Part shown: in pieces, positions 13,945-33,303 of the stretch | Layout: the number at the start of each line of letters is the position of its first letter | How positions within the stretch are numbered: the first letter of the stretch is position 1 | Source of the DNA: Oscillospiraceae bacterium | GTDB taxonomy: Bacteria > Bacillota > Clostridia > Oscillospirales > Ruminococcaceae | DNA length: 33,303 nt | Reading direction: 5' to 3' | Assembly (NCBI GenBank): GCA_009777445.1 | Contig: WRLV01000019.1 | Span: 1-33,303, forward strand | Position numbers and translations under genes: made by a program | The notes under the pieces: generated by a model | What the model saw: only the letters and a program-made list of their open reading frames with translations | The model's database searches: none | Told to the model about the DNA's origin: nothing

Positions 13945-14094
13945 GGACAATTGACAATTGACAATGGACAATTGACAATGGTGGAGTCGCTGTCGCGACT
14001 TATTAGAATTTATAACAATTGTGGCAAAGGAAATCCGTCCGCGCAAGCGGACACAATAATTGTCAATTGTCAATTGTACATTGTCAATTGTCAC
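13945..14094. repeat. Heptamer-array element A (about 150 bp, inverted arms) between atpB and atpE
   Basis: Left arm GGACAATTGACAATTGACAATGGACAATTGACAATGGTG; hairpins GTCGCTGTCGCGAC (13986-13999) and GTCCGCGCAAGCGGAC (14037-14052); right arm ...AATTGTCAATTGTCAATTGTACATTGTCAATTGTCA. Confidence 0.92.
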
Positions 14095-14827
14095 TTGACG
14101 TGTCTCCCATTGCAACATAGACCATTGTGAGCATCATAAAGATGTATGCTTGTATAACCGCTGTGAAAATATCAAAATAAAGCGACAAAACAGCAGGAAT
14201 GCCGATGGCCGCTAAACCGTATGCTAATGCGCTTAGTGAGAAATAAATCAAGCCGCCCAAAACCGTCCCCGCAAGTATGTTTGCGAAGTGACGAACGGTT
14301 TGAGACAAGGGGTTCGCGAACTCGCCGATAATATTAAACGGCAACATAAATTTCATCGGCTCAACAAAACTGCCGAAATAGCCCTTAACTCCACCGGTTT
14401 TAAACTTATTACGAGTGACGAGAATAAAGGTGATAATCCCCCATGTTCCGACAACCGAAAGTTCAGAGGTCGGGGGTTTAAGCCCCAACAATCCCATAAG
14501 AGAGCTAAGCAGAGAAATAAAGAACAACGCGGTTATGTAGCAAGTGTAGTTCTTATACTTAACCCCCATTGTGTCGCGAACGGTATTGCCAAAGAAGGTG
14601 ACAATGGTTTCGACAAAAACCTGCTTCTTTGAGGTGGGGTTTAGCTTTAAGTTTCTGCCTAACGCAAAAAACAAAAGCCCCAATAAAAACGTGACAAACA
14701 GCTGAATAAAGACCGTTTCGGTCACATAAAAAGTGTGCCCGAACAACTCAAACTCAAAGACAATCAATGCCCCCGTTACGCTAAACGCGCTTTCTTCTGA
14801 AGTTAGGGATATTATATTTTCGCTCAT
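14084..14827 (-). CDS. atpB: ATP synthase F0 subunit a
   Basis: ANPLSQTVRHFANILAGTVLGGLIYFSL (essential Arg helix), C-terminal TM FTAVIQAYIFMMLTMVYVAM; last residues SSDN* lie in the repeat element. Confidence 0.95.
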   Translation of the reverse strand: MSENIISLTSEESAFSVTGALIVFEFELFGHTFYVTETVFIQLFVTFLLGLLFFALGRNLKLNPTSKKQVFVETIVTFFGNTVRDTMGVKYKNYTCYITALFFISLLSSLMGLLGLKPPTSELSVVGTWGIITFILVTRNKFKTGGVKGYFGSFVEPMKFMLPFNIIGEFANPLSQTVRHFANILAGTVLGGLIYFSLSALAYGLAAIGIPAVLSLYFDIFTAVIQAYIFMMLTMVYVAMGDTSSDN

Positions 14828-28112: not shown

Positions 28113-28114
28113 TG

Positions 28115-28151
28115 GCAGTTGACAATTGACAGTTGACAGTGGATAGTTATT
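28115..28151. repeat. Heptamer-array half element B
   Basis: CAGTTGACAATTGACAGTTGACAGTGGATAGTTATT, starting about 3 bp after the ytfJ stop and ending before the RBS of the Rpn-like gene. Confidence 0.85.
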
Positions 28152-28168: not shown

Positions 28169-29005
28169 ATGAGCGAACTAAAAGTAAAACCAAAAGTTGA
28201 TATTGCATTTAAAAAAATATTTGCAGACAACGAAGAGCTTTTAAAAGCACTTATTTCGTCTGCTTTAGACTTCAAGGCGAAAAAAATAATTTTAAAGCCG
28301 ACAGAAATCACGCCATCAAGTGCTAAAGAAAAATTTTGCCGTTTAGACGTTCGCGCAAATGTTGACGGCAAAGAAATCGACATCGAAATTCAGCTGTTCG
28401 GGCGCGATGATTTTCGGGCAAGAGCAGAGTATTACTCCTGCCTTATGTTCGCAAGACTGCCGCGCGGCGAGGAATACGAGAAAATCCCCAAAACTATTCT
28501 GATTAATATAATTGACTGGAACGCCTTCGGCTGTTCCGAATACCATTCAAAGTTTATCACGATGGAAGAAAAACGCCACGAAATGCTTACAGACAAGAAA
28601 GAAATCCACTTCTTTGAACTGAAAAAAATACCGCCGATTGAAAACGCGACTAAAGAAATAGAATACTGGCTAAATTTAATAGGGGCAGACACAGAGGAAG
28701 AACTAAAAGAATTAGGGCGAACCGCGAACAAGAACATACTGAAGGCGGTTGGTGAGGTTAAAAGAATAAATGAGGACAGCCGTTTTGTATGGGAAGTCGA
28801 GGCTCGTGAAATACAATTAAGAGAAGAGAAATCGGCACTTTATTCGGCTGAGAAGAAAGGGCGAGAAGAAGGCGAGAAAAAGGGCATGGAAAAAGGCATG
28901 GAAAAGGGCATGGAGAAGGGGCGCGAAGAGGGCATACAGGAAACCATCGAAAGGTTTAGACGAGGCGGCATGTCCGATGAAGAGATTAATAAGTTTTTGC
29001 ATTAA
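28169..29005 (+). CDS. Rpn family recombination-promoting nuclease / PD-(D/E)XK nuclease family transposase
   Basis: MSELKVKPKVDIAFKKIFADNEELLKALISSALD...RLDVRANVDGKEIDIEIQ (PD-(D/E)XK core), GMEKG repeats, tail RGGMSDEEINKFLH. Confidence 0.85.
   Translation: MSELKVKPKVDIAFKKIFADNEELLKALISSALDFKAKKIILKPTEITPSSAKEKFCRLDVRANVDGKEIDIEIQLFGRDDFRARAEYYSCLMFARLPRGEEYEKIPKTILINIIDWNAFGCSEYHSKFITMEEKRHEMLTDKKEIHFFELKKIPPIENATKEIEYWLNLIGADTEEELKELGRTANKNILKAVGEVKRINEDSRFVWEVEAREIQLREEKSALYSAEKKGREEGEKKGMEKGMEKGMEKGREEGIQETIERFRRGGMSDEEINKFLH
28859..28942 (+). repeat. 12-bp coding repeats (GGCATGGAAAAA type), 7 units
   Basis: In-frame GREE-GEKK-GMEK-GMEK-GMEK-GREE-GIQE. Confidence 0.85.
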
Positions 29006-29863: not shown

Positions 29864-30862
29864 ATGGCGAAATTTGAAGGTAAAGAAAGGCGCGAGTCGA
29901 AGATAAACGCCTGTCTTAAAGAATACGGATTTGCCGACCTTGAGGCGGCAAGAGATTTTTGCGTAAGCAAGGGCATAAACGTTGATGAAATCGTAAAGAG
30001 CGTTCAGCCCATCGCTTTTGAAAATGCAGTTTGGGCATATATTTTGGGAACAGCCATTGCTCTCAAAAAGGGAATTACGAAAGCATCAGATGCGGCTGCG
30101 GCGATAGGCATAGGGCTTCAAGCCTTTTGCGTTCCCGGTTCAGTTGCTGAGAGCAGGAATGTCGGCATAGGTCACGGAAACTTAGGCGAGATGTTACTGT
30201 TAGAAGAGAATAAGTGTTTTTGCTTTTTGGCAGGGCACGAAAGCTTTGCCGCCGCCGAAGGCGCAATCGGCATAGCGCGCACAGCCAACAAAGCCCGCAA
30301 AGAGCCGTTAAGAGTAATCCTCAACGGTTTAGGCAAAGATGCGGCTTATATTATATCGCGTATAAATGGATTTACTTATGTTGAGACAGAATATGACATT
30401 CCAACCGACACTCTGAAAATTGTGAGAGAAGTTGCCTTTTCGAGCGGCGACAGAAAAGCGGTTAAGTGCTATGGCGCGAACGACATTACCGAAGGCGTTG
30501 CCATCATGAAAAAAGAAGCAGTTGAGGTGTCGATTACCGGCAATTCAACCAACCCGACAAGGTTTCAACACCCCGTTGCCGGAACCTATAAAAAGTGGGC
30601 GCTCGAGAACAAAAAGAAATATTTCTCAGTCGCTTCAGGCGGCGGAACAGGGCGAACCCTGCACCCCGACAACATGGCGGCGGGCCCTGCTTCTTACGGC
30701 TTAACCGACTCTATGGGGCGTATGCACGGCGATGCGCAGTTTGCCGGCTCTTCTTCAGTTCCGGCGCACGTTGAAATGATGGGTCTTATAGGAATGGGCA
30801 ACAATCCAATGGTAGGAGCGACAGTAGCTTGCGCCGTTGCAGTGGAAACGACGAACGCCTGA
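29864..30862 (+). CDS. GGGtGRT protein
   Basis: Signature VASGGGTGRTLHPDNMAAGPASYGLTDSMGRMHGD; directly follows the Fe-S scaffold-like gene. Confidence 0.9.
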   Translation: MAKFEGKERRESKINACLKEYGFADLEAARDFCVSKGINVDEIVKSVQPIAFENAVWAYILGTAIALKKGITKASDAAAAIGIGLQAFCVPGSVAESRNVGIGHGNLGEMLLLEENKCFCFLAGHESFAAAEGAIGIARTANKARKEPLRVILNGLGKDAAYIISRINGFTYVETEYDIPTDTLKIVREVAFSSGDRKAVKCYGANDITEGVAIMKKEAVEVSITGNSTNPTRFQHPVAGTYKKWALENKKKYFSVASGGGTGRTLHPDNMAAGPASYGLTDSMGRMHGDAQFAGSSSVPAHVEMMGLIGMGNNPMVGATVACAVAVETTNA

Positions 30863-30866
30863 CGAA

Positions 30867-31037
30867 CAGTTGACAGTTGACAAGGGACAGTTGACAGTTA
30901 TGGTGTCGCCTTTCGGCGACGAATTTAAATAAATTTTTGCACTTGACAATTCTTAAAATAGATGATATAATGAGATTGGCAGTCACGTTGCAAATTTAAA
31001 AACTGTCAACTATCCATTGTCAACTGTCAACTGTAAC
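30867..31037. repeat. Heptamer-array element C (inverted arms) enclosing the ssrA promoter
   Basis: Left ACAGTTGACAGTTGACAAGGGACAGTTGACAGTTATGGTGTCGCC; hairpin GTCGCCTTTCGGCGAC 30905-30920; right AACTGTCAACTATCCATTGTCAACTGTCAACTGTAAC 31001-31037. Confidence 0.9.
30943..30971 (+). promoter_or_regulatory. Consensus SigA promoter of ssrA (TTGACA-17-TATAAT)
   Basis: TTGACA 30943-30948, TATAAT 30966-30971, about 70 nt before the mature tmRNA 5' end. Confidence 0.88.
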
Positions 31038-31040
31038 AGG

Positions 31041-31390
31041 GGGGCCGTAAAGGTTTCGACGGGGATTTTGAAGTATGTTAAGCATGCAGAGCTTGTCCTG
31101 AACTCTTTAAACCGGGACACCTAAATTTAAACGCTGAAAATAGAACAGCAGCTGTAGCTGCCTAAGGGCAGTCTACCGTTCTCCTTGAAACCGCTGCGAT
31201 TCAAGGCAGGGCGTCATTTAGCAGCCAACGTATTGCGCGATAGCCTTGTAGCGTAACACGTAACCAAAGGGCTACCAACAGGCGGTTTTGTTAGTTTGAG
31301 CCGCCCGACGGGAAATTTTTCAACTGACTAAGCATGTAGAAAGATATATGAATAGGTTTTCGGACAGGAGTTCAATTCTCCTCGGCTCCA
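31041..31390 (+). ncRNA. ssrA: tmRNA (one-piece)
   Basis: GGGGCCGTAAAGGTTTCGACGGGG 5' end; acceptor stem GGGGCCG/CGGCTCC with G3-U; T arm AGGAGTTCAATTCTCCT; tag ORF GCTGAAAATAGAACAGCAGCTGTAGCTGCCTAA at 31133-31165 (AENRTAAVAA); 3' CCA not encoded. Confidence 0.97.
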
Positions 31391-31402
31391 GTATACTGTA
31401 AT

Positions 31403-31561: not shown

Positions 31562-31717
31562 TTACGCCGCTTCAGCGGATTTTCTTTGTTTCGCCCTCCA
31601 CTCGGCGAACTCCCTTTTCCCCTGCTCGCTCTCAAAGTATTTTACCACTTCAGGGAGCAAGCACCGAGCCAGTCTATGTATGGCTTCGTCGGGAATGGTT
31701 ACGGTTTTGTTTTTCAT
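31562..31717 (-). CDS. Small hypothetical protein (51 aa) divergent from an XRE regulator
   Basis: MKNKTVTIPDEAIHRLARCLLPEVVKYFESEQGKREFAEWRAKQRKSAEAA*; RBS GAGGAGGGGAGCTATG; consensus promoter upstream. Missed by the ORF track (below its size cut-off). Confidence 0.75.
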   Translation of the reverse strand: MKNKTVTIPDEAIHRLARCLLPEVVKYFESEQGKREFAEWRAKQRKSAEAA

Positions 31718-31749: not shown

Positions 31750-31778
31750 ATTATATCACACAAATAAAGTCTTGTCAA
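31750..31778 (-). promoter_or_regulatory. Consensus SigA promoter (TTGACA-17-TATAAT) for the 51-aa ORF
   Basis: Minus strand: TTGACA 31778-31773, TATAAT 31755-31750. Confidence 0.8.
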
Positions 31779-32366: not shown

Positions 32367-32840
32367 ATGAATATTAATCTTGAATCAACATTTATAGCGT
32401 GGCTTAGAAGTGTAGCAAAAAAACGAGGAACAGGAACATATGCGGCCGCCACCATAAAATCTTATGTTGTTGCTTTAAACGAGAAATTTATTTTGAAGAT
32501 TTTAGAATCTAACGATAATTTTTTGCCAAGTGTTTTTCACTATCAATCAGCAGATGATTTTAATCCCTGCGGTGAATACTGCAAAGGCTTCGTGAACTGT
32601 GACGAGCCGTGTGTGTTTTTAATCGGCGACACTAACCGCGATGGCAGAATAAATATAGCTGACTTGACTTATCTCAAACTGCTTGTTGCGAAATACAGAC
32701 CGGACGTTTTCGTCAACCGCCCGGAATGTTGGATTACCCCCGAAACAAGAGCAGAAGAAAACCCCGTGCCTGAAGCACGAGATTTGGGTATGCTAAAAAA
32801 CTTCCTCACGGGGAAAATTAGAGAGTTGACGGACAATTGA
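32367..32840 (+). CDS. Dockerin-like domain protein without a signal peptide
   Basis: ATG 32367 after AAAAGGGAG; N-terminal helical FIAWLRSVAKKRGTGTYAAATIKSYVVALNEKF; C-terminal IGDTNRDGRINIADLTYLKLLVAKY...DLGMLKNFLTGK. Confidence 0.65.
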   Translation: MNINLESTFIAWLRSVAKKRGTGTYAAATIKSYVVALNEKFILKILESNDNFLPSVFHYQSADDFNPCGEYCKGFVNCDEPCVFLIGDTNRDGRINIADLTYLKLLVAKYRPDVFVNRPECWITPETRAEENPVPEARDLGMLKNFLTGKIRELTDN

Positions 32841-32887
32841 CAATGTACAATTGACAATTGACAATTGTGGTGTCCGCTTGCGCGGAC
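32825..32887. repeat. Heptamer-array half element D
   Basis: GTTGACGGACAATTGACAATGTACAATTGACAATTGACAATTGTGGT + hairpin GTCCGCTTGCGCGGAC (32872-32887), identical to the complement of the element A right hairpin. Confidence 0.9.
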
Positions 32888-32892
32888 GACTT

Positions 32893-32969
32893 GTAGGGGA
32901 CGGGCTTGCTCGTCGTCCCGCAATTTGCAGATGTTTGTAAGAGAAGGGACGGGCAAGCCCGTCCCCTAC
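32893..32969. mobile_element. 77-bp MITE-like element with perfect 16-bp terminal inverted repeats
   Basis: GTAGGGGACGGGCTTG (32893-32908) ... CAAGCCCGTCCCCTAC (32954-32969); internal AGATGTTTGTAAGAGAA shared with copy 1. Confidence 0.75.
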
Positions 32970-32991: not shown

Positions 32992-33303
32992 TTAAAATTT
33001 CGGTAGCCATAGCGATTTCCTCAATTCCTTAATTTCTGCCTCGGACATCCCTCTTTCTCTTAATAAACTTAATACGCCTTCCATTCCTCTTTCCATGCCT
33101 TTTTCCATGCCTCTTTCCATACCTATTATAATCCCCTCCTCCTTCCCCAATCTCCGACTAACAGAAAGGTTTGTAGTTAGGTCGGCTTCCCATTTGCGCC
33201 TTGCTCTGTATTTTGCGATTGCGTGTTCGTCCTTGCTTATTGTATTTAAAATTTCAGTAGCCATAGCGATTTCCTCCTTTACCCTCATGGTTTCGCCAAT
33301 TTT
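32992..33303 (-). CDS. Partial CDS (5' end outside window): Rpn-like/PD-(D/E)XK family C-terminus with GMERG/GMEKG repeats
   Basis: ...KIGETMRVKEEIAMATEILNTISKDEHAIAKYRARRKWEADLTTNLSVSRRLGKEEGIIIGMERGMEKGMERGMEGVLSLLRERGMSEAEIKELRKSLWLPKF; open to window edge. Confidence 0.65.
   Translation of the reverse strand, partial: KIGETMRVKEEIAMATEILNTISKDEHAIAKYRARRKWEADLTTNLSVSRRLGKEEGIIIGMERGMEKGMERGMEGVLSLLRERGMSEAEIKELRKSLWLPKF

Follow-up and report, generated by a model that had tools for sequence, protein, structure and literature searches.

Two repeat arms bracket a probably native ssrA promoter in an Oscillospiraceae genome

The tmRNA gene, ssrA, of an Oscillospiraceae bacterium is preceded by a consensus promoter that lies between inverted arrays of a heptamer repeat, which raises the question of whether repeat DNA supplied or altered the promoter of an essential RNA. 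The window that we analyzed, a stretch of 33,303 nt, lies on contig C19 of the fragmented draft genome G000 (1.98 Mb, 91 contigs, ~92% complete). Here ssrA follows sdaAA, an open reading frame of the L-serine dehydratase alpha-chain type (29864-30862, plus strand; TGA stop at 30860-30862), whose protein homologues come mostly from Oscillospiraceae/Ruminococcaceae-type and other Clostridia gut genomes. The spacer between the sdaAA stop and the tmRNA is 178 nt long. A left arm of about five heptamers, TTGACAR, lies at 30866-30899 (plus strand), starting 3 nt beyond the stop (TGA CGA ACAG), and is followed by the CGTC-edged hairpin GTCGCCTTTCGGCGAC, GTCGCC-TTTC-GGCGAC, at 30905-30920 (plus strand). 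Next come the promoter, TTGACA-17-TATAAT (30943-30971, plus strand; 12 of 12 consensus bases, with TG ahead of the -10 box), a right arm without a hairpin (31001-31034, minus strand) and ssrA itself (31041-31393, plus strand; the end is 31390 by ARAGORN and 31393 by Rfam). The tmRNA matches RF00023 over its full length with 167.7 bits (cut-off 47), and ARAGORN reads its tag peptide as AENRTAAVAA. The two arms are 34 nt each, 94% complementary and separated by 101 nt. With up to two mismatches, GTTGACAGTTGACA occurs nine times in the window where 0.15 occurrences are expected, and chance is therefore not the explanation. This layout of arms, hairpin, promoter and tmRNA bears out a preliminary description of the locus.

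That description had also proposed that the repeat brought the promoter, and had suggested comparing the DNA upstream of ssrA in relatives lacking the repeat. We compared 32 rather distant same-genus relatives with a readable ssrA upstream region, requiring a match to 11 or 12 of the 12 consensus bases no more than 75 nt from the tmRNA. Such a promoter was found in 29 of the 32, against 2 of 492 background windows taken farther upstream at the same loci, and 28 of these 29 relatives have no heptamer array at ssrA. The closest ssrA (82%), that of genome G078, has TTGACA-17-TATAAT 17 nt ahead of the tmRNA, and this genome contains zero heptamer triplets; in G061, a genome that does carry heptamers, the ssrA promoter is bare. 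Since relatives free of the repeat have the same type of promoter in the same place, the promoter appears to be ancestral in the genus, and the comparison contradicts its delivery by the repeat. Outside the boxes, the promoter region shows little similarity to that of G078, the best local match being 13 nt long (p = 0.03). This is to be expected of intergenic sequence in genomes so far apart, and homology between the two would be positional, resting on place and consensus rather than on sequence identity. The perfect consensus and the place conserved in 29 of 32 relatives fit a promoter of the sigma-70/sigma-A type, with a predicted start. We also considered the heptamers, each of which contains TTGACA, as donors of the -35 box, and rejected them, the -35 box being already present in the bare native promoters of the relatives. 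No good -10 box follows the left array, where the best candidate is TTGACA-16-TATGGT (10 of 12).

We therefore favor, with a probability of roughly 0.85, the reading that ssrA is driven by its native promoter and that two separate repeat units bracket it. Under this reading an inherited, strong housekeeping promoter would drive ssrA transcription; one insertion would have placed a left unit of array and CGTC-edged hairpin at the 3' end of sdaAA, right behind the TGA stop, and a second would have placed a right unit, consisting of an array only, between the -10 box and the tmRNA. Both would belong to a family of non-autonomous mobile DNA moved by some enzyme. As to whether the promoter was remodelled, which had also been proposed, the -35 and -10 boxes show no change, and what the repeats did alter is their surroundings: the left unit meets the sdaAA stop and the right arm lengthens the leader. 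The gap between the -10 box and the tmRNA is 69 nt here and 9-35 nt in the 28 array-free relatives. With transcription predicted to start near 30978, the right arm does lie within the tmRNA 5' leader, as had been supposed, and would bring its length from some 10-30 nt up to ~60 nt. RNase P would presumably cut off this leader as usual, and little effect on the tmRNA is therefore expected.

A further suggestion, that a stem in the leader affects pre-tmRNA processing, fared poorly. RNA made from the ssrA promoter would not contain both arms, as the left one is upstream of the predicted start, and a pre-tmRNA stem between them was rejected for this reason. The right arm alone is predicted to fold at only -1.1 kcal/mol and the leader at -9.1 kcal/mol; attaching the leader costs the predicted tmRNA fold none of its 90 confident base pairs, with the acceptor stem remaining at no less than 0.91.

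To compare the bracket with other members of the family, we sampled 101 stretches of G000 (292 kb in all), picked via exact heptamer patterns, which yielded 179 arms. A hairpin of at least 6 bp lies on the inner side in 120 of the 179 arms and on the outer side in 5, and the arms form 35 inverted pairs. A normal paired unit bears hairpins on both arms, and the 21 compact pairs of this kind, 118-152 bp long, are without exception heterotypic, having one GTCGCC and one GTCCGC hairpin. Three pairs bracket promoter-like sequence, and none of these is heterotypic: the ssrA pair, with GTCGCC on one side and no hairpin on the other (promoter 12 of 12); C46:16914-17102, ahead of a tRNA-Pro gene, with GTCGCC twice (12 of 12); and C5:3569-3751, also with GTCGCC twice (10 of 12). 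The idea of a single element around ssrA is thus doubtful. Aligned with each other, the ssrA and tRNA-Pro cores score 26, whereas unrelated native ssrA promoters score up to 32 against the ssrA core and up to 38 against the tRNA-Pro core. Given the lack of heterotypic ends in the promoter-bracketing pairs, together with the comparison of cores, two half-units around native DNA are the simplest reading. The right unit at ssrA may, however, have lost its hairpin, in which case the bracket could be an old intact pair. The tRNA-Pro(TGG) locus (L088, C46:16914-17180) is laid out like ssrA, as array, hairpin, 12/12 promoter, hairpin and array, and its final array stops 2 nt short of the tRNA.

None of the 28 relatives in which the sdaAA 3' end was read has ssrA within ~1.5 kb of sdaAA. 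The junction in G000 is therefore a rearrangement, and its history may be more complex than two insertions. Recombination between repeat copies could have made the junction and left the bracket as a scar, and the absence of this adjacency from the relatives, the presence of an arm at each edge of the spacer and the mismatch between their hairpin states are in keeping with such an event. We regard it as a serious though less likely alternative, because separate insertions do occur, G020 having an array at sdaAA without ssrA and G021 an array between the ssrA promoter and the tmRNA, with the other side array-free within 190 nt; moreover, an intermediate arrangement is not among the relatives read.

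Alternatively, where transcription of sdaAA reads through, the arms might pair into a stem with a regulatory role, ending the sdaAA mRNA or separating it from tmRNA expression. Read-through is possible, since the sdaAA-ssrA spacer contains no predicted intrinsic terminator, whereas relatives, judged by reading, have terminator-like stems with U-runs behind them after sdaAA. The whole spacer as a single transcript is predicted to fold at -71.8 kcal/mol, but the same folding is expected of any inverted pair, and an arm-arm stem could form only in the read-through RNA. We consider a regulatory role of this kind improbable. Least probable by far is that a promoter-bearing miniature transposon delivered the ssrA promoter as cargo, as has been proposed for the Correia elements of Neisseria: although two of the three promoter-bracketing pairs enclose a perfect promoter just ahead of a stable RNA gene and BLAST aligns the ssrA pair with the tRNA-Pro pair from end to end, the 28 relatives have this promoter free of the repeat, the ssrA and tRNA-Pro cores are non-homologous, being no more alike than unrelated promoters, and the 21 compact copies hold AT-rich cores of other kinds, none scoring above 9 of 12.

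Two separate units around a native promoter thus remain the preferred reading, and the result for ssrA is an ordinary one: much repeat DNA can gather around an essential RNA gene and leave its promoter untouched. The repeat family matters more than ssrA, since it is apparently an undescribed short dispersed repeat of Clostridia-type gut bacteria. The triplet RTTGACARTTGACARTTGACA occurs 148 times in G000 (10 times for the reversed-pattern control) and 0-63 times in other members of the genus, among them G061 (54) and G062 (63); with one genome taken from each of 16 other genera, only one had a match. The family unit is a heptamer array with a CGTC-edged hairpin, present singly or in inverted pairs. 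Identical 34-nt arm variants recur in up to eight places, which indicates copying of entire units rather than growth in place; the exact arm variant was not found in viral contigs. There are two main hairpin stems, GTCGCC/GGCGAC and GTCCGC/GCGGAC, with the tag inside the stem. Read in the tag-before-stem orientation, the hairpin edge is CGTC in 92 of 109 cases and TGTC in 11, with a CCA-containing tail in 59. Within the window, further copies include a compact pair with unlike hairpins between atpE and atpB (13946-14097, no strand assigned), whose array supplies the TGA stop of atpB, a single array at the stop of an upstream ORF right before an Rpn/PDDEXK_2 gene (28113-28148, plus strand), and a single unit of array and GTCCGC hairpin (32832-32888, plus strand). 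A third hairpin type, the GTAG-edged TGTAGGGGACGGGCTTGCCCGTCCC, stands behind 19 of the 179 arms and also alone; in the window it is found at 434-456, 32892-32914 and 32941-32963.

Many of these units sit at the ends of genes. With ORFs taken from stop to stop, without a gene caller, 112 of 173 arms have a same-strand ORF with 100 or more open codons that terminates at the array or close to it, and the distance from stop to array peaks at 3 nt (23 arms; TGA CGA). Among ORFs of at least 200 codons, the stop is TGA in 73 of 83 with an arm starting no more than 25 nt away and in 26 of 82 elsewhere (p = 5e-14). This excess is partly mechanical, because the heptamer contains TGA, its 7-nt period reaches all frames and any ORF that enters must stop; what is informative is how many arrays coincide precisely with the end of a gene. 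The array carries TGA in three frames on one strand, its reverse strand being stop-free. In most relatives SdaAA ends with VEEANK-TAA or similar, and here with VETTNA-TGACGAACAG and a TGA stop; in G020 it ends with VSETNN and the array of that genome forms the stop. The atpB gene of G000 ends on the first heptamer. A separate observation at G020 (L337) is that inverted heptamer arms bracket the apparent native sdaAA terminator, with the stop codon inside the array. Tentatively, and with less than even confidence, we propose that the unit is a small mobile gene-end module that gives genes a new stop and a hairpin, rewriting gene ends and bracketing native promoters and terminators across the genome. 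Landing in last codons would then be restricted to a single orientation, since only one strand has TGA in all frames; if true, this three-frame stop would account for the clustering of copies right at the ends of genes.

A literature search with the repeat letters found no relevant paper, and the family seems undescribed in the literature searched. It most resembles known families in parts. Like the CGTC-tagged palindromic repeats (PMC3733652), it has a short hairpin with CGTC at one palindrome end and a CCA tail, and frequently forms dimers of two different units with the tags facing each other; that superfamily, too, is without a dedicated transposase. In contrast to those repeats, whose 8-9 bp stem begins with A-T pairs beside an unpaired tag, the present stems include CGTC and have no A-T pairs at their start, a heptamer array of ~35 nt flanks the hairpin on its outer side, and the host is Clostridia-type, which is not among the five phyla of that paper. 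With miniature inverted-repeat elements such as Correia/NEMIS, RUP and ERIC (PMC2229807) it shares a size of ~100-200 bp, dispersed and mainly intergenic near-identical copies with inverted ends, strong RNA hairpins and stops in many frames. Unlike them, its ends are heptamer arrays, and single half-units are commoner than pairs. By eye, the flanks of the few pairs inspected showed no target duplication. REP/REPIN sequences mobilized with RAYT likewise consist of a hairpin unit that stands alone or as an inverted doublet close to the ends of genes; the present repeats differ in that their two main hairpin types have no GTAG tag, and no match to the Y1 (IS200/IS605-type) transposase family PF01797 was found in the ~92% complete genome, so that a REP/REPIN-RAYT identity was rejected. 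The TAACTGA heptamers of Beggiatoaceae, cyanobacteria and Bacteroidetes (PMC4679880) are also intergenic, tandem and patchy among related genomes, but they are a different heptamer and lie mostly just upstream of start codons, whereas ours are paired with hairpins and placed on stop codons. Heptamers recur between genes in other bacteria as well, the cyanobacterial STRR being another intergenic repeat of this kind.

As for a possible mover, the Rpn (PDDEXK_2) nuclease is a suggestive candidate. Its family (PF12784) has 31 matches in the ~2-Mb genome, many at contig ends, and 13 of the 18 loci inspected had heptamer arrays in the surrounding sequence that was retrieved; the window contains a gene at 28169-29005 and remnants near 94-411 and 32992-33288. 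In some tandem units the joint reads ...TTGAC-GA-ACARTTGAC... (C16:2058, C40:20046, C49:16242, C2:45992 and other places). Such joints look like a new unit landing inside an existing array after TTGAC, and may mark the target site. Downstream of ssrA, the window also has a 12/12 promoter on the minus strand (31750-31778), upstream of a short minus-strand frame at about 31570-31716.
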